Shown here piece after piece: positions 312-21,165 of a DNA stretch of 21,165 nucleotides. Numbering within the stretch: the first letter of the stretch is position 1; each line of letters begins with the position of its first letter. A program made the translations under genes and the position numbers. The stretch lies in IMG/VR virus record IMGVR_UViG_3300022690_002130, positions 1-21,165 of that record. One strand, 5' to 3'. This stretch comes from a virus. Below the pieces are notes generated by a model. That model was not told the DNA's origin. It saw nothing but the letters and a program-made list of their open reading frames with translations, and ran no database searches.

Positions 312-473
312 TCAAAGTTCTAACTCTACCGGCCTATTTGCACGCTTAACTAATTCATCAGTAAATTTCATATAATCACTAGATGATCTACATGACGGAT
401 CATAAATACCAACCGGCATTCCTTTTGCATTAGCCGCAGGTATTTTTTGACACGTTCTAATAATTGTTTTAAA
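312..473 (-). pseudogene. ParA-like partition ATPase, C-terminal fragment lacking its N-terminus
   Basis: No start codon is available: the frame can only be followed from about 473 down to the TGA at 314-312. The translated part reads FKTIIRTCQKIP, then GMPVGIYDPSCRSSSDYMKF, then DELVKR. This resembles the end of ParA/Soj-type Walker ATPases: an I-(P/R)-x-x-x-x-x-x-E/A-A block, a G-x-x-V/I-x-x-YDP turn, a serine-rich S-x-x-DY stretch, and a last helix ending E-x-V/L-x-R. The Walker A and B motifs would lie upstream and are absent. Upstream of about 473 the frame stays open but no longer looks like ParA, and the plus-strand RHH gene begins there. The gene therefore appears cut at about 470-476 by a deletion, inversion or chimeric join. 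It could also be a distant relative; the call rests on about 50 residues. Confidence 0.55.
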
Positions 474-683
474 AATAAGAATAAAAAGCCGGATATCATA
501 AGTTCTAAAAAGTTTGATGATAGAGAAGAGAATAGGCTTATAAGGCGAAGTTTTGATATTAGTAAGCGGTGTGCTAAGGAAATTAAATTAAGAGCTATTA
601 CGGAAGGAATAAAAGACTATGACGTTGTGCAGAGGGCTTTGAATCGGTATTTTGGGTTTGATGAAGGTGAAAAAGATGACTAA
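447..683 (+). CDS. Ribbon-helix-helix DNA-binding protein (omega/ParG/Arc-like)
   Basis: Small basic protein of 78 residues as drawn. The C-terminal half has RHH geometry: a short strand at about residues 33-38 (RRSFDI), helix A at about 40-54, a glycine/lysine turn, and helix B at about 57-69 (YDVVQRALNRYF). The N-terminus is a flexible Lys/Asp-rich arm. RHH dimers insert the strand into the major groove and often bind tandem short repeats. The start is doubtful. The only in-frame initiator is TTG at 447, which also reads as TTGACA and could be a -35 box. The homologous part probably begins at about 471 (KNKNKK), next to the cut end of the ParA-like fragment, so the natural start may have been lost. 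It is a candidate ligand for the 8-bp arrays at 1534, 3375 and 7761. The fold call is by eye. Confidence 0.6.
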   Translation: MTRSNNCFKNKNKKPDIISSKKFDDREENRLIRRSFDISKRCAKEIKLRAITEGIKDYDVVQRALNRYFGFDEGEKDD

Positions 684-1533: not shown

Positions 1534-1565
1534 GAACATTTGAACAAAAGAACTTTTGAACATTT
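1534..1565 (+). repeat. 8-bp periodic array, 4 units, each beginning GAAC (proposed RHH operator)
   Basis: GAAC occurs at 1534, 1542, 1550 and 1558, exactly 8 bases apart, each followed by four A/T bases (ATTT, AAAA, TTTT, ATTT). A fifth position at 1566 has GCAA. The last unit contains the proposed -35 box of the integrase promoter. The same phase and core recur at 3375 and 7761. An unspaced 8-bp period is the geometry used by MetJ-type RHH repressors. Confidence 0.8.
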
Positions 1566-1618: not shown

Positions 1619-2596
1619 ATGATACCCAATACCCCCATTTCTTTGGAGTCTAAGAATAAAGAAGGCAAAAGAAAACTAGCTTTATCATACGCAGGTTTTT
1701 TGGCTTCTTATGCGGACTCCTCAAAAAAAATGATACATTCATACATCGGAATATTTTCCCGATTTTTAAAACAATACAATATCTCCATAGATGAAGTTGA
1801 CCAGAATATCGTTAATCTTTATCAAGATGCTACAGGACGAAAAGATATTTCAAACGGTACATACAATTTAAGAATAGGTTATATAAAATGCTTCCTATCC
1901 TTTTTAGGTAAGAACTTTATTTATAAATATAAACACCGTGAACCTTACGGAAATATCAGAATAATTAATGAAGATGATTTTAAATTAATCATTCATCATT
2001 TAGAAAAATCAATGAAAGATAAAACGTCTTTAAGTCCCAGTGGCATCTTAAATTATCGCCGATATCTGAGGGATTTTATTATATTCTCCCTTTTCTATTT
2101 ATCAGGTCTTAGAAAATCAGAACTTACCGGATTGAAACATAAAGATGTATTTGTTGAAGGGGGAGACATTTTTTATAAAACCGATATTAAAGGTTCGAGA
2201 GAAATTAAAAAACAATTTCCTGTTTTTCTTTATAACTACATTAATGAATTGAAACAAATTGAAAACAAAACAGATGATTGTTATATTTTTACCAGTGTGA
2301 GTAATAGAAGCAGTACTAAAATGTTATCTAATGCAGCCCCTAATAAGTTTTTTATGAAATACTTTAAAAGTGTTACCGGCAAAAATGAAAGAGTTACCAT
2401 ACACGGTATTAGAAATATATCCGGTTTAGCTGTCTTTGAAGAAACAAAAGATATTTTAATTACTAAAGATCATCTCAATCATTTTCGTTTAAATACAACT
2501 CAAATTTATTTGGAAAAAGGTAGAGAAAGAAAATCAAGTCCATACAATTCATTAATCAATCGTTTAGACCTTAAGCAATATGCTGGTCAGAATTAA
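1619..2596 (+). CDS. int: Tyrosine recombinase / phage integrase
   Basis: 325 residues, full length for the XerC/D and phage integrase family. The N-terminal half (about 20-105) is a SAM-like core-binding domain; residues 115-320 form the catalytic domain. Catalytic residues can be placed: R165 in SGLRKSEL, a likely K191 in the beta-hairpin (DIKGSRE), H262-x-x-R265 in HGIRNISG, H288 in LNHFRLNTT, and the nucleophile Y297 in TQIYLEK. The set is complete, so the enzyme should be active. ATG at 1619 follows AAAGGAGAC. It is transcribed from its own promoter, which lies under an 8-bp array. Its role could be integration/excision, multimer resolution of a plasmid prophage, or segment inversion; no attP could be identified. 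Confidence 0.92.
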   Translation: MIPNTPISLESKNKEGKRKLALSYAGFLASYADSSKKMIHSYIGIFSRFLKQYNISIDEVDQNIVNLYQDATGRKDISNGTYNLRIGYIKCFLSFLGKNFIYKYKHREPYGNIRIINEDDFKLIIHHLEKSMKDKTSLSPSGILNYRRYLRDFIIFSLFYLSGLRKSELTGLKHKDVFVEGGDIFYKTDIKGSREIKKQFPVFLYNYINELKQIENKTDDCYIFTSVSNRSSTKMLSNAAPNKFFMKYFKSVTGKNERVTIHGIRNISGLAVFEETKDILITKDHLNHFRLNTTQIYLEKGRERKSSPYNSLINRLDLKQYAGQN

Positions 2597-3374: not shown

Positions 3375-3430
3375 GAACTTTAGTTTATTTGTTTATTTGA
3401 ACTATTGAACTTTAGTTCTAATGTTCTTTA
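3375..3430 (+). repeat. 8-bp periodic array, 7 units in both orientations, upstream of ssb
   Basis: Seven consecutive octamers start at 3375, 3383, 3391, 3399, 3407, 3415 and 3423. All begin with G: three GAAC, two GTTT, two GTTC. The rest of each unit is A/T. Units 5 and 6 form the palindrome GAACTTTAGTTC. GTTC is the complement of GAAC, so the array mixes direct and inverted units, as seen for the RHH protein omega on its heptads. It fills most of the gap between 3368 and the ssb promoter. Confidence 0.75.
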
Positions 3431-3446
3431 TTGTTTTATATCTTAC

Positions 3447-3476
3447 TTGTTAATGACCCCACTAGGTCTATATATT
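3447..3476 (+). promoter_or_regulatory. Putative ssb promoter
   Basis: TTGTTA at 3447-3452 and TATATT at 3471-3476 with an 18-base spacer, 16 bases downstream of the octamer array. TATAAA starting at 3475 is an alternative -10. The leader to the SSB start would be about 65 bases. Confidence 0.45.
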
Positions 3477-3506
3477 ATAAACTTTCGATATGACATTTAA
3501 TAGACC
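3465..3506. promoter_or_regulatory. Inverted repeat around the ssb -10 region (possible second operator)
   Basis: GGTCTAT at 3465-3471 pairs with ATAGACC at 3500-3506, with 28 bases between. The left arm overlaps the -10 box and the right arm lies in the leader. The spacing suits either a dimeric operator or a leader hairpin. It is only 7 bp long, so it could be chance. Confidence 0.35.
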
Positions 3507-3547
3507 CAGTGATACTATTGAGTATATTAAATAAGGGAGTGAGTAAA

Positions 3548-3898
3548 ATGAGTTTTAATTACAATCAGGTAACATTAATAGGACGTTTAACCCAAGACCC
3601 TGAGATGTTAAGGGTACTAGATAAAGTAAAGGCCACTCTATATTTAGCTATTAACAGACCATACAAAAAAGAGGATGGCACTTCTGACACTGATTTTATA
3701 GCTGTTATTGTGTGGGGAAAGCTAGCCGAGATCGTACAGCAATACACAGTCAAAGGCAGTCCGCTTTTAGTCAGCGGTAGAATACAAGTAAGAAGCTACG
3801 AGTATGACGATAAAAAGCATTGGATAACTGAGGTGCTCGCTGACAATATCCAATTCTTAGGGAAAGAAGAGAAGATAAACAAGGAGCAAGTAAAATGA
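3548..3898 (+). CDS. ssb: Single-stranded DNA-binding protein
   Basis: The start at 3548 (MSFNYNQVTLIGRL) follows AAGGGAGTGAG at good spacing; an in-frame GTG at 3509 lacks one and is rejected. The 116-residue protein is one OB fold: strand 1 VTLIGRLTQDPE, then the F-I-A-V-I-V-WGKLAE core at about 49-61, then V-K-G-S-PLLVSGRIQVRSYE at about 68-84 and a last strand VLADNIQFLG at about 95-104. These are family hallmarks. It binds ssDNA during replication and recombination. Oddly it stops soon after the OB fold and lacks the acidic DDxPF tip that bacterial SSBs use to recruit partners, ending KINKEQVK. The TGA overlaps the next ATG. Confidence 0.93.
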   Translation: MSFNYNQVTLIGRLTQDPEMLRVLDKVKATLYLAINRPYKKEDGTSDTDFIAVIVWGKLAEIVQQYTVKGSPLLVSGRIQVRSYEYDDKKHWITEVLADNIQFLGKEEKINKEQVK

Positions 3899-4066: not shown

Positions 4067-4270
4067 ATGCCACGTAAACTAAAATACGACTACGATATAA
4101 AGATAATAACAAAGCTATCAAACAAACCTTTCAATTGGACAATGGCGAAGATCGCTAGACATAACAAATGGCCTAGAAAGGATACTATGCTATGGGTTCG
4201 TAGACATTATTTGATTGTAGAGGACAAGAAAGTTGAATTTATACCTATTGAGAAGAAAGGAAGGAAATGA
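4067..4270 (+). CDS. Small homeodomain-like HTH protein, paralogue of 12093
   Basis: 67 residues starting MPRKLKYDYDIK. The middle (NWTMAKIARHNKWPRKDTMLWVRRHY) looks like a helix-turn-helix: W-x-x-(I)-A helix, turn, then a recognition helix ending in W-V-R-R. The protein at 12093 has the same layout: MPKRVKYD, NWDEINNNYGKSKGTIQRWF. They are related early regulators, or terminase-small-subunit-like DNA binders. The C-terminus is basic. It overlaps the next gene by 4 bases. DNA binding is inferred from the motif only. Confidence 0.6.
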   Translation: MPRKLKYDYDIKIITKLSNKPFNWTMAKIARHNKWPRKDTMLWVRRHYLIVEDKKVEFIPIEKKGRK

Positions 4271-4719
4271 TGATATTTATTTCAGAATTTAATGACTTAC
4301 CAATGCTAAATGATGTGTTAGTATCAACCATATTTTTGGGTATACTTATAATTTTTGGATTGATAATTTATATAAGTATAACTCAAATAGATTTGAGATT
4401 TGACTATTCTTATCATAAAGAAGTAACTATTAAGAATTTAAAAAGTTTTGGTTATGCTGACTTTAATGAATTCAAGAAACAATTTGATAATGATAAAAGA
4501 AAATGGACTAGAGATATCAATTATTTAGAAGCATTTTTTGAATATGAAACAATATCTGATCATAAATGTATGGTATCTCAAGTAGAGAATGGAATAGTTT
4601 TTTTCAATAATAAAGGAATGGTATTTTCTAGTCTAAAAGAATTTAAAAAGTTTCGATCTTTCATAAAAAAGAATAAATATAAATATGAGGAAACTGATAG
4701 TGTTAATTGGAAAAATTGA
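4267..4719 (+). CDS. Membrane-anchored unknown protein with a borrowed 12-residue module
   Basis: 150 residues. One membrane span at about residues 18-38 (VSTIFLGILIIFGLIIYISI) is followed by a soluble charged domain with FEYETISDHKCMVSQVENGIVFF and a basic Lys-rich C-terminus. Residues 15-26 (NDVLVSTIFLGI) are encoded by a 36-bp segment identical but for one base to a segment inside the gene at 5570, in the same frame. There it belongs to the conserved core of another family. The N-terminus of this gene thus looks recombined. Topology is probably N-out/C-in or the reverse; function unknown. Confidence 0.65.
   Translation: MMIFISEFNDLPMLNDVLVSTIFLGILIIFGLIIYISITQIDLRFDYSYHKEVTIKNLKSFGYADFNEFKKQFDNDKRKWTRDINYLEAFFEYETISDHKCMVSQVENGIVFFNNKGMVFSSLKEFKKFRSFIKKNKYKYEETDSVNWKN
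4309..4344 (+). repeat. 36-bp coding direct repeat, copy A
   Basis: Matches 5708-5743 at 35 of 36 positions (A/G difference at base 22), and both copies are read in the same frame (NDVLVST, I or V, FLGI). The flanking sequence is unrelated apart from a few bases (TTATAAT) downstream. Confidence 0.85.
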
Positions 4720-5569: not shown

Positions 5570-5971
5570 ATGATGGATAAAAAAGTAAGAAATAAATATT
5601 TCAAACTTGTAAATAATAAAGTTGTTCCTTGTAAGGATGTATTTGAATGGGCAACCTGGTATGAAACAGCAGATGAGAAAAGAATCATTATGAGAACAGA
5701 ATTAGAAAATGATGTGTTAGTATCAACCGTATTTTTGGGTATAAATTATAATCATTTTACTCACGGTCTTCCTATACTTTTTGAAACTATGGTTTTTGAA
5801 GGAAAAGAAGATGGGTTGGAAAAAAGATATTGTACTTTAGAAGAGGCAAAAAAGGGACATGAAGAAATTGTGAGGAGTTTAGAAGATCAACCACCACCAC
5901 TTCCACCATTCCCAGAACCGGGTCAAAGGTTGGATGAGAATTATTGGAAAGAAAAAGGGGAAAAATTATGA
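5570..5971 (+). CDS. Widespread phage protein with VSTVFLG ... ILFETMVF core
   Basis: 133 residues. Order of conserved blocks: an N-terminal KYFKLVNNKVVPC (about 7-19), FEWATWYE (about 24-31), RIIMRTE (about 37-43), DVLVSTVFLGINYN (about 47-60), LPILFETMVFEG (about 66-77), and RYCTLEEAKKGHEEIV at about 84-99, followed by a proline-rich tail (PPPLPPFPEPG). I recognise this order from many tailed-phage and prophage genomes, where the protein has no assigned function. ATG at 5570 or 5573 follows AAGGATGG. Its DVLVSTVFLG segment also occurs in the gene at 4267. It overlaps the next gene by ATGA. Confidence 0.8.
   Translation: MMDKKVRNKYFKLVNNKVVPCKDVFEWATWYETADEKRIIMRTELENDVLVSTVFLGINYNHFTHGLPILFETMVFEGKEDGLEKRYCTLEEAKKGHEEIVRSLEDQPPPLPPFPEPGQRLDENYWKEKGEKL
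5708..5743 (+). repeat. 36-bp coding direct repeat, copy B
   Basis: Partner of 4309-4344. This copy lies in the conserved core of its protein family, so it is more likely the original and the copy at 4309 the derived one. Confidence 0.8.
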
Positions 5972-6326: not shown

Positions 6327-6997
6327 TGCAAGAAGATTTATACAACATTTTGGAAGTAAATAAAGATGCCTCTAAAGAAGATATTAAAAAAAGCTACAAA
6401 AAACTAAGTAAAAAACATCATCCCGATATCAGTAAAGAACCGGATGCACAAAAGAAGTTTGCAATCATTTCTTGTGCTTATGCAATTATAAGCGATCAAG
6501 ACAAGAGAAAAAAATATGATAAAACAGGTAAGGTTGAGCAGCCTTCTAATATACAAGAGAGAGCGTTAGAAATGTTATCTAATCTATTTTCAGATATTTT
6601 AGTATTGAATCTTAAACAGGATAGTAATGGTAGTGATAACGATATACTTTATATTCCAACTATAGAAAAGACATTGACTGAAAATTTAATAAAAGTCTTA
6701 AATCTATTAAAAACCACTGATGAAGTTATTTCTTTTTTTAAAAATAAACGAAAAAAGATTATTCAGAAAAACAAAAAATCTATTGATTTATATTCCTTAA
6801 TCATTGAAAAAAAAATTATAGAATTTCAAACTCAAAAAGATAATATATCTAAAGATTTAAAAACAATTAAAACAGCGAAATCGTTATTGAAATCTTATCG
6901 AGAGAAAAAAACAAAAAAACCCGAATTAAGTCATCACGATTCTTTTGCCTCATTTGCTCAATCTAACACAACTTCTACTACTACTTGGCAATTTTGA
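6326..6997 (+). CDS. Orphan J-domain (DnaJ-like) protein
   Basis: Start at 6326 (MQEDLYNILEV) overlaps the previous stop. An upstream in-frame ATG at 6317 adds only three residues. Residues 2-66 are a J domain: DLYNILEVNKDAS, the helix II KKSYKKLSKK, the diagnostic HPD at 32-34, then FAIISCAYAIISDQDKRKKYD. J domains stimulate the ATPase of DnaK/Hsp70. The rest (about 75-223) is Lys-rich, largely coiled-coil, and ends in a Ser/Thr-rich tail (SNTTSTTTWQF). The Gly/Phe and zinc-finger domains of true DnaJ are absent. It probably recruits host DnaK to a phage task; which one is unknown. Confidence 0.85.
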   Translation: MQEDLYNILEVNKDASKEDIKKSYKKLSKKHHPDISKEPDAQKKFAIISCAYAIISDQDKRKKYDKTGKVEQPSNIQERALEMLSNLFSDILVLNLKQDSNGSDNDILYIPTIEKTLTENLIKVLNLLKTTDEVISFFKNKRKKIIQKNKKSIDLYSLIIEKKIIEFQTQKDNISKDLKTIKTAKSLLKSYREKKTKKPELSHHDSFASFAQSNTTSTTTWQF

Positions 6998-7113
6998 TGA
7001 ATAAACGACAATCTCAGCTAAAATATGAACACTCGGATAAAGGAAAAGCATCAAACAAAACATACTATCTTAAGAAAAAGTTATTGAATATGAAGGAAAT
7101 TGAAAAAATTTAA
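6997..7113 (+). CDS. Small basic protein with SDKGKAS motif (38 aa)
   Basis: ATG at 6997 overlaps the J-domain gene stop (TGATG). The peptide MNKRQSQLKYEHSDKGK continues with ASNKTYYLKKKLL. The Y-x-x-(S/T)-DKGK-(A/E)-S motif also occurs in the protein at 11733-11915 (YMATDKGKES), a motif familiar from phage small basic repeat proteins. Probably nucleic-acid binding, given its charge; not proven. Confidence 0.55.
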   Translation: MNKRQSQLKYEHSDKGKASNKTYYLKKKLLNMKEIEKI

Positions 7114-7482
7114 ATGAATAAAGAAGAATTAAAATCTAAATTACAACTTCAATTAGATGATATACAAGACGTAATCTATGCCTTACCTTCCTTAAGAGAG
7201 CATATGCTTTCTTATCAAATCTACAAAGAGAAATGTAACATTGGGATGCGTAGTAATCTAATATTTTATATCAAAGAATTATTTTATTTTTTTGCTGAAT
7301 ATAGGATAAGAAAAAAGAGAGTATCTCTAGAAAAAAAGAAAGCAGAATTAAAATCAGATTTAATGAGCTTAGACCCCTTTAAGCCGCTTATATTGGATGA
7401 TATGGCGAAATTTGAAGACGATATTTGTGAAATATGTTCATCTACAATTTGTAATTGGAAACTTCATATTAAAAGAAAGTAG
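7114..7482 (+). CDS. Unknown coiled-coil protein with C-terminal cysteines (122 aa)
   Basis: Starts immediately after the previous TAA. N-terminal helices (KEELKSKLQLQLDDIQDV), an aromatic-rich helix (YIKELFYFFAEYRI), a Lys/Glu coiled coil at about 66-87, then a C-terminal EICSSTICNW with cysteines spaced C-x5-C after an earlier DIC. It is the last gene of the plus-strand arm. No membrane span is certain. No family recognised. Confidence 0.6.
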   Translation: MNKEELKSKLQLQLDDIQDVIYALPSLREHMLSYQIYKEKCNIGMRSNLIFYIKELFYFFAEYRIRKKRVSLEKKKAELKSDLMSLDPFKPLILDDMAKFEDDICEICSSTICNWKLHIKRK

Positions 7483-7560
7483 GAAAAATTAATCCTTAAT
7501 CCCTAACTTCTCAATACGCCGCAATATCCATGAGATCCAAAAAGACCTTAGCGCGTTAAA

Positions 7561-7603
7561 TTTGAGGCTAAACAGATTTTTAGTTTTTTATTTTAGCCTC
7601 AAA
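7561..7603. repeat. Perfect 12-bp inverted repeat (hairpin 1)
   Basis: TTTGAGGCTAAA at 7561-7572 pairs with TTTAGCCTCAAA at 7592-7603 around a 19-base T-rich loop. Outside it, AGCGC (7550) can pair with GCGCT (7620) and CCAAA (7537) with TTTGG (7624), which extends the structure with bulges. No U-run follows on either strand, so it is not a standard intrinsic terminator. Confidence 0.75.
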
Positions 7604-7636
7604 ATACTATGGGATCCTAGCGCTTTGGCATTTTAA

Positions 7637-7688
7637 CTGGCTGAGAGCGGAGATTCGGTATGCTTAAGACCTTATCACTCTCAGCCAG
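7637..7688. repeat. Perfect 11-bp inverted repeat (hairpin 2)
   Basis: CTGGCTGAGAG at 7637-7647 pairs with CTCTCAGCCAG at 7678-7688 around a 30-base loop that contains AAGACCTTA. The stem is GC-richer than its surroundings and no U-run follows. Confidence 0.75.
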
Positions 7689-7760
7689 ACGACAAATAAT
7701 TTCTTTAATATTTTATCATATTATTAAAAAATTAGGTGATTTAAAAACAATGAATAAAAA

Positions 7761-7784
7761 GAACAAAAGAACAAATGTTCAAAA
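7761..7784 (+). repeat. 8-bp periodic array, 3 units
   Basis: GAAC at 7761 and 7769 and GTTC at 7777, 8 bases apart, each followed by four A/T bases; a degenerate GTGC sits at 7785. Units 2-3 (GAACAAATGTTC) form a near-palindrome. Unlike the other two arrays, no plus-strand gene follows, which argues for a non-promoter role such as a partition site. Confidence 0.65.
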
Positions 7785-7825
7785 GTGCCCTCAGTACATA
7801 TTGTAGAAACAATATGTATTCAGTA

Positions 7826-8116
7826 TCAGAGATTTTTAGCTATTATGGTGATTGGTTTTTGATTTCCTTTCTCTTCAAAATTACCATTCATAAAACCGAT
7901 AACCCCATCTCGGCTATTCACAATATAAGTATCCCAATTTATTCTTGGATCATAATCATATTTTTCTATTGTTATTTGATCTTTTGTGAGTTCTGGACAA
8001 AAATAATTATCCATATTAATCTCGGTCACAAGTTCATCAATAGTTTTAACTTCTATTTGAGTTTTCATTGATTCTTCTAAACTCCCTCTATGGAATCTAA
8101 ACTTAATAGTTTTCAT
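7826..8116 (-). CDS. Conserved phage protein, FRFHRGSLEESM family (96 aa)
   Basis: Begins MKTIKFRFHRGSLEESMKT and contains TIDELVTEI, ITIEKYDYDPRINWDTYIV and GVIGFMNGNFEE. I recognise this combination (FRxHRGxLxESM ... Y-x-x-D-x-RI-x-WDTY-I/V ... GxxGFxxGxF) from many phage and prophage genomes; no function is assigned. ATG at 8116 follows AAAGGAAG. It is the last gene of the minus-strand accessory arm. Confidence 0.75.
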   Translation of the reverse strand: MKTIKFRFHRGSLEESMKTQIEVKTIDELVTEINMDNYFCPELTKDQITIEKYDYDPRINWDTYIVNSRDGVIGFMNGNFEEKGNQKPITIIAKNL

Positions 8117-8132
8117 TTTAGCTTCCTTTCAA

Positions 8133-8399
8133 TTAGCTTCTTTGGGATTGGTTTTCATATAACTCTGGATTATCTTTCAAAAATTCCTTTAAATCTTTTT
8201 TCCCTCTAATTTTCTTAGCACTTCTCGGAATAAATGTAATCAATAATACAATTACGAAGAATATCTTAATAAAAAGGCTATCTCCTAAAAATTTATAATT
8301 AAAAAGAAGGCCACCAAATAAAATTAAGAAACTAAATATATCAGATTTATAGGATGAAAAGTCACTTTCATTATATATAACTATTTTTATTTCTTTCAT
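8133..8399 (-). CDS. Small phage membrane protein (88 aa)
   Basis: MKEIKIVIYNESDFSSYKSD precedes two hydrophobic segments at about residues 22-38 (FSFLILFGGLLFNYKFLG) and 42-58 (IKIFFVIVLLITFIP), then a basic soluble tail (KKIRGKKDLKEFLKDN). The DFSSYKSDIF ... FLGDS arrangement is typical of a widespread phage membrane protein family of unknown role. It lies 16 bases from its downstream neighbour; its ribosome binding site is AAAGGAAT. Confidence 0.7.
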   Translation of the reverse strand: MKEIKIVIYNESDFSSYKSDIFSFLILFGGLLFNYKFLGDSLFIKIFFVIVLLITFIPRSAKKIRGKKDLKEFLKDNPELYENQSQRS

Positions 8400-8414
8400 A
8401 ACATTCCTTTCAAT

Positions 8415-8723
8415 TTATGGAAAATCCGGCAATTCCATCCAATGTGTAATTTTATCCACTATTTTATATTGCATCTCTGCCTCTTCTGAATACTCAAACC
8501 ATCCTTCTATAACCCAATAACAATCTTCTTTTTCATCATGTTCTGAAAGACTCTGGTCTTCCCACCATTCCTCAGCAATAAAATCTTCTTCTAAGACTGT
8601 TTTTGGGGGAATATATTGTGCCATTGCAATTATTTTCATATCACAACTATTTTTAAAAAATACCAATACTTTCTGTTGACACTTTGGTTTTTTATCTTTT
8701 ACATTTATCCATTTATTTTTCAT
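8415..8723 (-). CDS. DUF551-domain phage protein
   Basis: 102 residues. N-terminal WINVKDKKPKCQQKVLVFF, a middle IIAMAQYIPP and C-terminal DKITHWMELPDFP match the DUF551 pattern: W-I-x-V-x-D-x-x-P ... VLV ... A-x-Y ... I-T-H-W-M-x-LP-x-P. The family is small, soluble and common in phages and prophages; its function is not known. An acidic insertion (EEDFIAEEWWEDQS, SEHDEKEDCYW) separates the halves. ATG at 8723 follows AAGGAATG. Confidence 0.8.
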   Translation of the reverse strand: MKNKWINVKDKKPKCQQKVLVFFKNSCDMKIIAMAQYIPPKTVLEEDFIAEEWWEDQSLSEHDEKEDCYWVIEGWFEYSEEAEMQYKIVDKITHWMELPDFP

Positions 8724-9475: not shown

Positions 9476-9631
9476 TTATTCATCTAGATTATTTTCCAGT
9501 TTATTTACTACATCAACCAACTCATTGATTTTATCGATCATTCTTTGTTCTAAAGGATTAGCAGATATATAAGTATTGTCATACGGCATACAGGGTTTAC
9601 TTGTATCTGTTATTTTTTCTATTTTAGTCAT
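9476..9631 (-). CDS. Small acidic coiled-coil protein (51 aa)
   Basis: Begins MTKIEKITDTSKPCMPYDNT, contains ANPLEQRMIDKINELVDVV and ends LENNLDE. Start at 9631 overlaps the RNA ligase stop codon (ATGA), so it is translated from the same mRNA. The C-terminal half is a predicted amphipathic helix/coiled coil. Function unknown; a partner role for the ligase is possible only from adjacency. Confidence 0.5.
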   Translation of the reverse strand: MTKIEKITDTSKPCMPYDNTYISANPLEQRMIDKINELVDVVNKLENNLDE

Positions 9632-10188
9632 GTGACTACCCTTTTCTGACCAAAATCTCGTTTCTTTATTTTTGCCATTTTTCCGTCCGGATGATGAAAC
9701 ACTATACCCTCTATATCTTTATCTTCAAGCCATTTAGATATGCCTTCATAGGTACGTTCAATTCCTTCATACTCTTGAGCAAGACTATGTGAAACAAGCC
9801 TGTGTTCGGGATATCTTTCTGGATTCTTTTGAATTTTTGGGCCGACTAATTCATAAGTTCCATGTATAGGTCGGGGTAATGCGTCTTCAAATGCCTCCAT
9901 ATGGTATTTATTTTCATTTTCTGCTGGGTCTACTTCAAGCCAGCCAACACGTTTACCAGTAATAGGATCAAATGTTTCTTCAATGAAACCGTGAGGTATT
10001 TCACCATTCTTTTTTACTTCTCTTCTTTTAAAATATCTATGTCCTTTGATCATTACACAAGTACCATCATATTTTCTGGTTGCAATACCTTCACCTTTAA
10101 ATACCCAATCACAATCTGGGTGAGGCTCATTAAGTAACTCTCTCATATTGTCTGGATTTCTTTTAAATATTGTTGGTATTTTTTTCAT
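9628..10188 (-). CDS. RNA ligase of the RLIG1 / DUF5565 nucleotidyltransferase family
   Basis: 186 residues. Covalent-nucleotidyltransferase motifs in order: motif I K39-Y-D-G42 followed by TCV (predicted AMP-accepting lysine K39), a basic stretch YFKRREVKK (about 52-60), GWLEVDP and NKYHMEAF, motif III-like GTYELVG (E113), then NPERYPEHRLVSH, motif IV DIEGIVFHHPDG (E160) and motif V MAKIKKRDFG. The K-x-DGTC ... GW-x-x-V ... E-L-(I/V)-G-x-x-I-x-x-NP ... (I/L)EGIV-x-H-x-x-DG layout matches human RLIG1 (C12orf29), a 5'-3' RNA ligase. At 186 residues it is a minimal core without the C-terminal extension. Likely role: repair of RNA cut by host defence nucleases; inferred. It is coupled to the small gene at 9631. 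Confidence 0.85.
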   Translation of the reverse strand: MKKIPTIFKRNPDNMRELLNEPHPDCDWVFKGEGIATRKYDGTCVMIKGHRYFKRREVKKNGEIPHGFIEETFDPITGKRVGWLEVDPAENENKYHMEAFEDALPRPIHGTYELVGPKIQKNPERYPEHRLVSHSLAQEYEGIERTYEGISKWLEDKDIEGIVFHHPDGKMAKIKKRDFGQKRVVT

Positions 10189-10244: not shown

Positions 10245-10526
10245 TCACTTTTTGGTGTTTTTGGATATATGGTTATTTATATGTCCCTTTTTACCATTCC
10301 ATATACTAACAGCCATTGATATGGTTTCCACAGTTAATCTAGGGTTTACCCCACAATTAAGGCCATCACAGAACACTACATAATTACCTGAAAAGTCCGT
10401 AAAAAAGTCAGGCTTTTCCCCACAAAATGGGCATCTTCTAATATTTGATCCACTAATTAAGTCTAGCGTGTCTAAATCTTTTGTTGTCAAATTATGATAG
10501 GTAAGTTTATTCTTTACTTCATCCAT
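10245..10526 (-). CDS. Lar-like restriction-alleviation zinc protein
   Basis: 93 residues. RRCPFCGEKP at about 30-39, FCDGLNCG at about 52-59, and a final ETISMAVSIWNGK at about 67-79 match the Lar pattern: L-x-x-CPFCG-x-x-P ... C-x-x-x-x-C ... A-x-x-x-WN. C32, C35, C53 and C58 would bind one zinc. Rac-prophage Lar reduces type I restriction, but most phage proteins with this fold are untested. A longer N-terminus (about 29 residues) and Lys-rich tail are unusual. ATG at 10526 is overlapped by the stop of a 17-residue frame. Confidence 0.75.
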   Translation of the reverse strand: MDEVKNKLTYHNLTTKDLDTLDLISGSNIRRCPFCGEKPDFFTDFSGNYVVFCDGLNCGVNPRLTVETISMAVSIWNGKKGHINNHISKNTKK

Positions 10527-10729: not shown

Positions 10730-11149
10730 TTATTCCTTCTCCTTCAAAACACATGGATATCCCCATAGATCGACGTAGCCGGTTGGGGACTCTTTGTCTT
10801 TAATTGCTCCGTAACTACAGTTGATTAGTATAGTCGCTGCTTTTAAGCTAATTTTTGAAGAAGCCTTCCCAAAATCTTCTTGAATAAAATCCTTTAGACA
10901 ACTCCACCCATAAGCTTTTCTAACATCCTCATCCGTTAACTGTGTATGGTCTTTCAGGATGGGGTAAATATCATGTTCTTCTAAAGAGTAAAAACCGTGA
11001 TCATATTCTAATGAAAAATGATCTGGTGAGCTTAGAATGCCAGCTAATACTTCTTTAGAATTTTGAAATAATTGTTCATTAAAAGAGTTAACTCTCACTT
11101 CCATCCCCAAATACCGAGCCAAACTCCGTGCTGTGTGTTGTTTAATCAT
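10730..11149 (-). CDS. Conserved phage protein, MIKQHT family, copy 2 (139 aa)
   Basis: Complete paralogue of the partial gene at 1-300. N-terminal block MIKQHTARSLARYLGMEV; middle block FSLEYDHGFYSL; then IYPILKDHTQLTDEDVRKAY; C-terminal helices ATILINCSYGA and a final GYVDLWGYP. The L-K-D-x-(T/S)-x-LTDED block is recognisable in phage hypothetical proteins; no function is assigned. The start shares its first 19 bases with the mini-frame at 11487. It follows the gene at 11159 by nine bases in the same operon. Confidence 0.75.
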   Translation of the reverse strand: MIKQHTARSLARYLGMEVRVNSFNEQLFQNSKEVLAGILSSPDHFSLEYDHGFYSLEEHDIYPILKDHTQLTDEDVRKAYGWSCLKDFIQEDFGKASSKISLKAATILINCSYGAIKDKESPTGYVDLWGYPCVLKEKE

Positions 11150-12580: not shown

Positions 12581-12622
12581 AAAAATTATGACTCTCCACT
12601 ACAAACAAATGAAGAGCCATAA
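12579..12622 (-). terminator. Intrinsic terminator of the late operon
   Basis: In the minus-strand RNA UUAUGGCUCU (12622-12613) pairs with AGAGUCAUAA (12595-12586), 10 bp with one G-U, loop of 17, followed by seven U residues (12585-12579). It lies 39 bases after the last late gene. On the plus strand the stem has an A-C mismatch and no U-run, so it acts in one direction only. Confidence 0.8.
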
Positions 12623-12660: not shown

Positions 12661-13038
12661 TTATATATTCAATCCAAATTTAACTTCCCCATTAGATGGA
12701 TCCCAATCAGCCGAAACAATACCAAACGATCCGTTTACTTTCTTTGTCTTGATATCATATCCCAATTTTAGACCTGCCAATTCTCCCTTTGCCTTGGTAA
12801 TAATATCAGCAGCTTTATCCGTATCTTCATCCGAATATTCTTTTGTAAGATCATCAAACTTTTTTATCAACCAGCCCACTTTTTTAGCTTCCTTTTCTTT
12901 CTTACTAAACTCAGCGAGTTGTTGTGCCATAGTCAAATACATCTTTATAGTCTTCCAGTTCTGTTTATCAAGCCCCCACCTAACCAACCCCCGAACATAC
13001 TGCCAAACAAATAATAACCCCGTTTTTAATACTAACAA
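12661..13038 (-). CDS. Unknown late protein with hydrophobic N-terminus (125 aa)
   Basis: TTG start at 13038 with a strong AAGGAGG eight bases upstream; no ATG fits. N-terminal LVLKTGLLFVWQYVRGLVRW could be a membrane anchor. A charged helical middle (QLAEFSKKEKEAKKVGWL, DEDTDKAADIITKAKGEL) and a beta-rich end (KKVNGSFGIVSADWDP) follow. It is the last gene of the late operon, after the endolysin-type and membrane proteins. An accessory lysis or virion role is inferred from position. No family recognised. Confidence 0.65.
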   Translation of the reverse strand: MLVLKTGLLFVWQYVRGLVRWGLDKQNWKTIKMYLTMAQQLAEFSKKEKEAKKVGWLIKKFDDLTKEYSDEDTDKAADIITKAKGELAGLKLGYDIKTKKVNGSFGIVSADWDPSNGEVKFGLNI

Positions 13039-19810: not shown

Positions 19811-20380
19811 TCATAACGGAACAAAATCGCCACCAGCTAATATCTCACCATCGCCACCTAATAAAATTGAGCCGTCACCACCTGATAAGAGATAGGGTGA
19901 TACTGCCGGTGGTGGAATAACAACAGGAACCGGAGAAACAAAAGATGTGTTTTCCCATAAATCGAACTGTAAAGTGAATGAAGAGTCATCAAAACGGACA
20001 AAATTCACTGTGATTGTTATATTTTGGCTCTTTATTTCACCGGTGACTATAATATCCTTAACCAATTGATCGGGTATCATCCAAATAAAACAATCTCTGA
20101 CAAAATCAATGGCTAAATTAAGCGTTTTATCAATTAATCTGGATTGATATAGCAACCAAAGTTTGGAGCCAATCTCATAATCCTCTTCTTCATTCTGTTC
20201 ATTACCTATCCAGCCTCTTCTTAATGATGCTTCTGCAATTTCTGAAGGTTCGGCTCTTTTGTCTACAAATAAAGCTAAGAGAATGGTTGTGTCTAAGCCG
20301 TCATTGGAAGTAAAATCACCGTTGGTTATAGTGAGATCATAAACGTCATCTTCATTTTTAGTTAATGTGAGATCAGACAT
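19811..20380 (-). CDS. Mu gp46-like baseplate protein with glycine-rich tail
   Basis: 189 residues. N-terminus: LTKNEDDVYDLTITNGDFTS (about 5-24), DTTILLALFVDKRAEPSEI (29-47) and RRGWIGNEQNE: the GP46 / baseplate wedge pattern D-x-(T/I)-x-x-L-x-x-S/T-L-F-(T/V)-D-(R/K)-R-A ... RGWW/I-(G)-D/N. The middle holds FVRDCFIWMIPDQLVKDIIV and NITITVNFVRFDDSSFTLQF. After a proline hinge (VVIPPPAVSP) the end is LSGGDGSILLGGDGEILAGG, three GGDG-type repeats, as seen in other phage virion proteins. Order gp45-gp46-gp47-gp48 as in Mu. Its first 113 bases plus upstream sequence are repeated in inverse orientation at the window end. Confidence 0.85.
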   Translation of the reverse strand: MSDLTLTKNEDDVYDLTITNGDFTSNDGLDTTILLALFVDKRAEPSEIAEASLRRGWIGNEQNEEEDYEIGSKLWLLYQSRLIDKTLNLAIDFVRDCFIWMIPDQLVKDIIVTGEIKSQNITITVNFVRFDDSSFTLQFDLWENTSFVSPVPVVIPPPAVSPYLLSGGDGSILLGGDGEILAGGDFVPL

Positions 20381-20400
20381 ACTTTTAGTTTATCAAAATG
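20257..20400. repeat. 144-bp exact inverted repeat, arm 1
   Basis: Identical to the reverse complement of 21022-21165 (20257 pairs with 21165, 20400 with 21022). It covers the first 124 bases of the gp46-like gene and 20 bases upstream. The arms are 621 bases apart. Confidence 0.95.
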
Positions 20401-21021: not shown

Positions 21022-21165
21022 CATTTTGATAAACTAAAAGTATGTCTGATCTCACATTAACTAAAAATGAAGATGACGTTTATGATCTCACTATAACCAA
21101 CGGTGATTTTACTTCCAATGACGGCTTAGACACAACCATTCTCTTAGCTTTATTTGTAGACAAAA
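21022..21165. repeat. 144-bp exact inverted repeat, arm 2 (probable artefact)
   Basis: Exact reverse complement of 20257-20400. From 21042 it re-encodes the start of the gp46-like protein (MSDLTLTKNEDD...) on the plus strand and runs to the window edge. No sequence divergence at all, and it breaks the expected upstream gene, so a fold-back chimera or graph error is most likely. Confidence 0.9.

Follow-up and report, generated by a model that had tools for sequence, protein, structure and literature searches.

What is the function of 343 bases free of genes at the point where the two gene arms of a phage genome meet? We addressed this question for an IMG/VR virus record of 21,165 bases, classed as linear and probably a fragment, which was analysed in full and is called the window here. 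Its leftward arm contains tail genes (baseplate J and its neighbours), a DUF5675 gene and small genes, and its rightward arm an Xer-like recombinase, ssb, a DnaJ-domain gene and small genes. The window derives from a tailed phage that probably persists in its lysogens in plasmid form, as a phage-plasmid. Among the smaller genes, 10245-10526 encodes a candidate Lar-like restriction alleviation protein (Pfam E 5.4e-6, narrowly missing the curated cut-off). Genes 1-315, 1012-1251 and 10730-11149 share a ribosome-binding region and an N-terminus (MIK[QH]HT...), the first and the last of them also internal stretches, and by their sequences the three form a small family of putative paralogues. The search for tRNA and tmRNA genes in the window found none.

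The first-pass annotation had described a structured non-coding gap at this place and had proposed a small RNA, a replication or partition site, or an attachment site. The gap was placed correctly: the stop codons of the two converging genes form its borders, and the longest ORF inside has 48 amino acids, none of the ORFs being convincing. A plus-strand ORF (7775-8071) overlaps the gap and lies antisense to gene 7826-8116, which matches phrog_8785 (E 2.6e-12). The gap is the structurally most unusual stretch of the window, it is far from either contig end and it shows no sign of a chimeric join. The features discussed below are collected in Table 1.

Table 1. Positions of the gap, its repeats and the associated genes in the window
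Feature	Position	Strand	Description
ParA/Soj-type ATPase, C-terminal fragment	312-476	-	matches to plasmid proteins
Small RHH-like protein, ParB/omega-like candidate	447-683	+	weak profile and tblastn matches
Array (a)	1534-1561		four tandem GAAC boxes, 8-bp period; ends about 57 bp upstream of the recombinase ATG
Xer-like tyrosine recombinase	1619-2596	+	resembles XerA/XerC/XerD/XerH; without obvious arm-binding domain
Array (b)	3375-3426		seven in-phase boxes (GAAC, GTTt, GTTt, GAAC, GAAC, GTTC, GTTC); upstream of ssb
ssb-leader inverted repeat	3460-3511	+	12 bp, one mismatch, 28-nt loop; near array (b)
Single-strand DNA-binding protein gene (ssb)	3548-3898	+	sequence match
Intergenic gap	7483-7825		between convergent genes 7114-7482 (+) and 7826-8116 (-)
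IR1	7561-7603		perfect 12-bp inverted repeat, arms 7561-7572/7592-7603, 19-nt AT-rich loop
IR2	7637-7688		perfect 11-bp inverted repeat, arms 7637-7647/7678-7688, 30-nt loop
Very AT-rich stretch	7690-7760		71 bp, 85.9% A+T, between IR2 and array (c)
Array (c)	7761-7788		GAAC-N4-GAAC-N4-GTTC-N4-(GTGC), 8-bp period; in the gap
IR3	7790-7823		15-bp arms 7790-7804/7809-7823, 13/15 (87%) complementary, 10-bp perfect core, 4-nt loop

The two perfect inverted repeats that had been reported, IR1 and IR2, are exact, and no other perfect inverted repeat of at least 11 bp with a spacer of at most 45 occurs in the window; a third hairpin, IR3, had been missed. Fifteen simulated windows contained between zero and two perfect inverted repeats of at least 11 bp each, five in total, and the probability of at least one GC-rich arm (at least five G/C) of at least 11 bp in 343 nucleotides is about 0.0003. 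IR3 is located 1 bp from array (c) and can also be read as an 11-6-11 structure at 7793-7820 with an arm match of 10/11; its sequence makes it a candidate hairpin or Xer/lox-like core. Two further elements described earlier carried less weight. The duplicated AAGACCTTA motif is real, but it is not significant (p about 0.13 for a repeated 9-mer with at least three G/C and 0.51 for any 9-mer) and was dropped. The outer split pairing (CCAAA/AGCGC) is present as letters, but the MFE structure of the plus-strand RNA does not contain the full pairing; we judged it to be within chance and dropped it as well. An integron attC-type site was rejected, since by eye the order of the core motifs is wrong. 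Elsewhere in the window, a near-identical 46-bp direct repeat is found at 4308-4352 (in gene 4267-4719) and 5707-5752 (in gene 5570-5971).

Hairpins between converging genes might mark the end of transcription, and the gap might serve two converging operons as their 3´ untranslated region, for termination and insulation, in which the hairpins act as roadblocks, as protectors of RNA 3´ ends or as Rho-linked terminators and the array is incidental. The position between converging genes fits this explanation, as does the location of IR3, 2 nucleotides from the end of gene 7826-8116, and a hairpin is present in the convergent gap of some tail-cassette relatives (L066, L086, L090). The gap hairpins are similar to intrinsic (rho-independent) terminators in being stem-loops at operon ends but differ from them in having long loops and no U-run, and in IR1 arms that are T-rich at the 5´ end and A-rich at the 3´ end. 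Our search for intrinsic terminators (a GC-rich stem with a short loop, followed by a U-run) gave none within 6900-8500 and thus none in the gap, whereas the phage does have U-run terminators on the minus strand, at 12624-12584 (just after gene 12661-13038) and at 17520-17491. Judging by these, the tail/lysis transcript may end near 12584, with genes 12033-7826 forming a unit of their own. The view that the gap hairpins are not ordinary terminators is therefore borne out, and the presence of U-run terminators elsewhere in the window, with none in the gap, was counted in favour of a partition site. In addition, the convergent late/early gaps of tail-related phages are mostly short and lack such repeats, and only a few contain one hairpin; compared with them, a length of 343 bases is unusual, but not diagnostic. 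The match of the gap array to two distant promoter regions would also be left unexplained. Taken as a whole, we consider the operon-end explanation possible but somewhat unlikely.

The octamer array, and not the hairpins, is the decisive feature of the gap. It had been noted in the first-pass annotation, and it turned out to be weightier than was thought at the time, because two matching arrays are located elsewhere in the window. All three consist of tetramer boxes separated by AT-rich spacers of 4 nucleotides; the boxes are all direct in array (a), and direct and inverted in arrays (b) and (c). Array (c) has three perfect boxes in the order ->-><- and one degenerate fourth box; array (b) has a core of four perfect boxes in the order ->-><-<- (3399-3426), extended to 3375 by one perfect and two degenerate boxes. 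Searched for repeats, the window gave an exact match between 7772-7786 and the reverse complement of 1552-1566, immediately ahead of the recombinase gene, although by our estimate a 15-mer match alone is not rare in DNA this AT-rich. For pairs spaced by 8 bp, GAAC was the top tetramer among those tested, with 8 pairs seen and 0.73 expected (2 pairs were seen for the tetramer next in enrichment); the GAAC tetramer had been spotted first and was counted afterwards. The window contains three GAAC clusters of at least three boxes, all of them intergenic, and its best 3- and 4-box arrays occur only at these three places. None of 300 order-2 simulations contained two clusters of at least three boxes, and 149 of 150 order-3 simulations had no cluster at all, the remaining one having a single cluster. 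The margin of GAAC over all other tetramers makes an origin by chance unlikely.

Two of the three arrays are located just upstream of genes, which would also be expected if all of them were operators of an ordinary phage transcription regulator, for lysogeny or early genes, without a part in partition. The gap array would then control a short unannotated transcript, perhaps a leftward RNA containing IR2 and IR1. In line with this, the leader of ssb likewise combines an array with a long-loop inverted repeat, possibly an autoregulatory leader, and an RNA read leftward from the gap has a good fold (z -6.3 for the whole gap, -3.82 for 7601-7720). However, no promoter-like site rose above the shuffled background, and a plain regulator would not need the ParA gene that is present. 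We regard this explanation as tentative and rather unlikely.

The recombinase encoded downstream of array (a) offers another view of the gap. It resembles Xer proteins and has no obvious arm-binding domain, which makes it unlikely that the arrays serve as arm sites of an integrase. Core sites of tyrosine recombinases (dif/lox/attP) have inverted arms of 11-13 bp around a spacer of 6-8 bp and are found next to the recombinase gene. IR3, 34 bp long and read as 15-4-15 or 11-6-11, might be the core site at which this recombinase resolves multimers or brings about integration, array (c) being an accessory element. Besides the type of recombinase, the order of the elements speaks for such a core site, since array (c) abuts IR3 and array (a) precedes the recombinase gene. 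Yet this gene is located 5 kb from the gap, and the perfect spacer of 4 nucleotides is a better fit for a hairpin. We also counted against it that the inner arm ends of IR3 do not show the usual dif letters. Altogether, an Xer core site at IR3 seems quite improbable, and an attachment site, one of the functions proposed earlier, found no direct support.

Another possibility is a structured small RNA encoded in the gap, or an origin of prophage replication that is based on RNA. In some parABS prophages, which have parS sites with 8-bp repeats, a non-coding RNA beside the par genes drives replication (PMC7157519). The fold of the whole gap compared with shuffled sequences (z -4.7 on the plus strand and -6.3 on the minus strand) and the AT-rich stretch of 71 bp (86% A+T) are consistent with this possibility. 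On the other hand, the fold is unexceptional in short windows, the best 120-nucleotide window of the gap ranking sixth of 1054. None of the Rfam covariance models matched the gap at its gathering score, low-scoring matches being due to chance, and the searches for relatives of the gap were negative. The cumulative GC skew has its peak close to the gap, which is terminus-like, although gene direction confounds this measure. An RNA or RNA-based origin appears distinctly unlikely; of the functions proposed earlier, the small RNA did not gain support from Rfam.

The search for relatives was made at several levels. No near nucleotide relatives of the window or of the gap were found in phages and plasmids, and distant matches to the gap were AT-rich chance matches only. 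Pattern scans of IMG/VR for IR1, for IR2 and for the box array gave no matches, so that no relative carrying the array was found there, and searches of IMG/VR for relatives of gene 7826-8116 and of the recombinase were likewise negative. A search with the baseplate gene in bacterial genomes gave no useful host. The RNA ligase encoded at 9628-10188 is of the phrog_14301 kind and has many relatives of 40-51% identity in unrelated phage contigs. Relatives of this ligase and of the baseplate gene were rejected as relatives of the gap, because they have tail genes or single genes in common with the window and not the gap; they were used only to show convergent gaps in similar phages.

Candidates for proteins acting at the arrays are found at the left end of the window. 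A C-terminal fragment of a ParA/Soj-type ATPase has 22 matches to plasmid proteins, mostly annotated as ParA family, with 32-43% identity; the Walker region of ParA is absent from the window. Next to it, the ORF 447-683 encodes a small protein whose weak tblastn matches include one in a Peribacillus plasmid, to a protein overlapping parA at its 3´ end, and one in an Enterocloster plasmid, to a protein about 1 kb from the gene for a ParA-like ATPase. A profile built from these three related proteins and compared with all PDB chains ranked the omega repressor (1irq, E 0.48) first and a CopG protein (E 0.93) second, both below significance, and the alignment with omega and CopG is in the right register. 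Searches of Pfam and PHROG with this ORF gave no match, nor was a sequence match to ParG found. AlphaFold without an alignment predicted two helices and no strand, a single-sequence prediction that is uninformative, and structure searches with two RHH models returned no fold match. Beside parA in the two plasmids with the distant RHH-like matches, no GAAC-like array was found. By its sequence, the ORF may weakly be taken for an RHH protein.

The arrangement of these two genes has to be seen together with the contig ends, both of which look chimeric. The last 144 bases of the window (21022-21165) repeat 20257-20400, about 0.8 kb inside, exactly and in inverted orientation, so the right end is a fold-back chimera from amplification or assembly. 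On the left, the ParA fragment (minus strand) and the RHH-like ORF (plus strand) meet head to head near 476-490, and a second inverted chimeric join is probably located within 312-490. The gene order at the left end is therefore not to be trusted, and the true 5´ end of the ORF was probably lost at the junction. Inverted joins with deletions are typical products of multiple displacement amplification and mostly connect segments less than 10 kb apart (PMC1855051). Therefore, parA and the RHH gene are probably close to each other in the true genome, and probably on one strand.

Several known systems are similar to this combination of arrays and genes. The tandem short boxes at fixed spacing, direct or inverted, that mark RHH-type ParABS sites are found in all three arrays. 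In the delta-omega system of pSM19035, the RHH ParB protein omega binds 7-bp repeats at six parS sites that overlap promoters; four contiguous repeats are enough, and three are poor activators (PMC9499535). In the window, too, short non-palindromic boxes, direct and inverted, form several arrays at a distance from each other that may overlap promoters, and there are a small ParA, seen as a C-terminal fragment, and a candidate small RHH-like protein whose family profile matches omega first in the PDB. In contrast to pSM19035, the period is 8 bp and the box GAAC instead of the 7-bp WATCACW, an array has 3-7 boxes instead of 7-10, the setting is a phage, and the gap array has strong hairpins beside it and no known promoter. 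Compared with the minimum of four contiguous boxes for omega, array (a) has four, array (b) four perfect boxes within seven, and array (c) three perfect boxes and one degenerate box.

A similar box design is known for ParG on parH of TP228, in which four-letter boxes with AT-rich 4-nucleotide spacers, direct and inverted, mark the DNA for the RHH partition protein (PMC7308502). ParG, an RHH protein with a flexible N-terminus, is at the same time centromere-binding protein and repressor, which would be a further likeness. The box itself is a different one, however, and the sites described here are dispersed over 6 kb. A probable likeness in lifestyle is that to the RedRock-type mycobacteriophages, the prophages of which are maintained extrachromosomally by ParA/ParB with more than one parS locus, an 8-bp repeat occurring eight times in each (PMC7157519). 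These copies are all direct and the phages have no integrase, whereas here an Xer-like recombinase is encoded and boxes point in both directions.

The replication or partition function, one of the three proposed earlier, has thus gained strength, since the GAAC array occurs at two further intergenic sites and the window encodes a ParA C-terminus and an RHH-like protein. The most likely explanation, to which we give about an even chance, is that the gap holds an operator or a centromere-like (parS) site of the ParA/RHH system of the phage-plasmid. The gap would then be a non-coding DNA control region, in which dimers of the RHH-like protein (447-683 or a relative of it) would bind neighbouring GAAC/GTTC boxes, one dimer next to the other. 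Such dimers would control the promoters of recombinase and ssb from arrays (a) and (b). Array (c), located in a convergent gap, where no gene promoter is needed, would give rise to a parS-like partition complex that the phage ParA recognises, and would mark the molecule for ParA-driven partition of the plasmid prophage. Proximity is the only tie between the hairpins and array (c); IR1-IR3 may insulate the converging transcripts or lend the DNA or RNA a special shape, they may form an RNA, or IR3 may serve the Xer-like recombinase.

Against a partition site we counted that no more than a fragment of ParA is present, at a contig end that is probably chimeric, that no relative with the array was found, that the three perfect boxes and one degenerate box of array (c) are to be set against the poor activation by three omega repeats, and that the RHH match is below significance, without a Pfam or PHROG match and without a strand in the AlphaFold model. 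The gap array is probably an RHH operator or centromere array of a phage-plasmid, but not a proven parS. A broader version, which we think improbable, is a combined maintenance locus in which a parS-like RHH array is fused to an RNA-based replication origin or to an Xer resolution site and one RHH protein couples partition, recombination and the supply of single-strand DNA-binding protein via the three dispersed arrays.

If the partition reading is right, an uncultivated phage would use a single small protein and a code of 8-bp boxes, placed at three sites, to link plasmid inheritance with recombination and replication genes, in a manner similar to the streptococcal omega regulon. A partition site would then be recognisable in a viral contig without close relatives, by a tetramer that occurs at fixed spacing only between genes.
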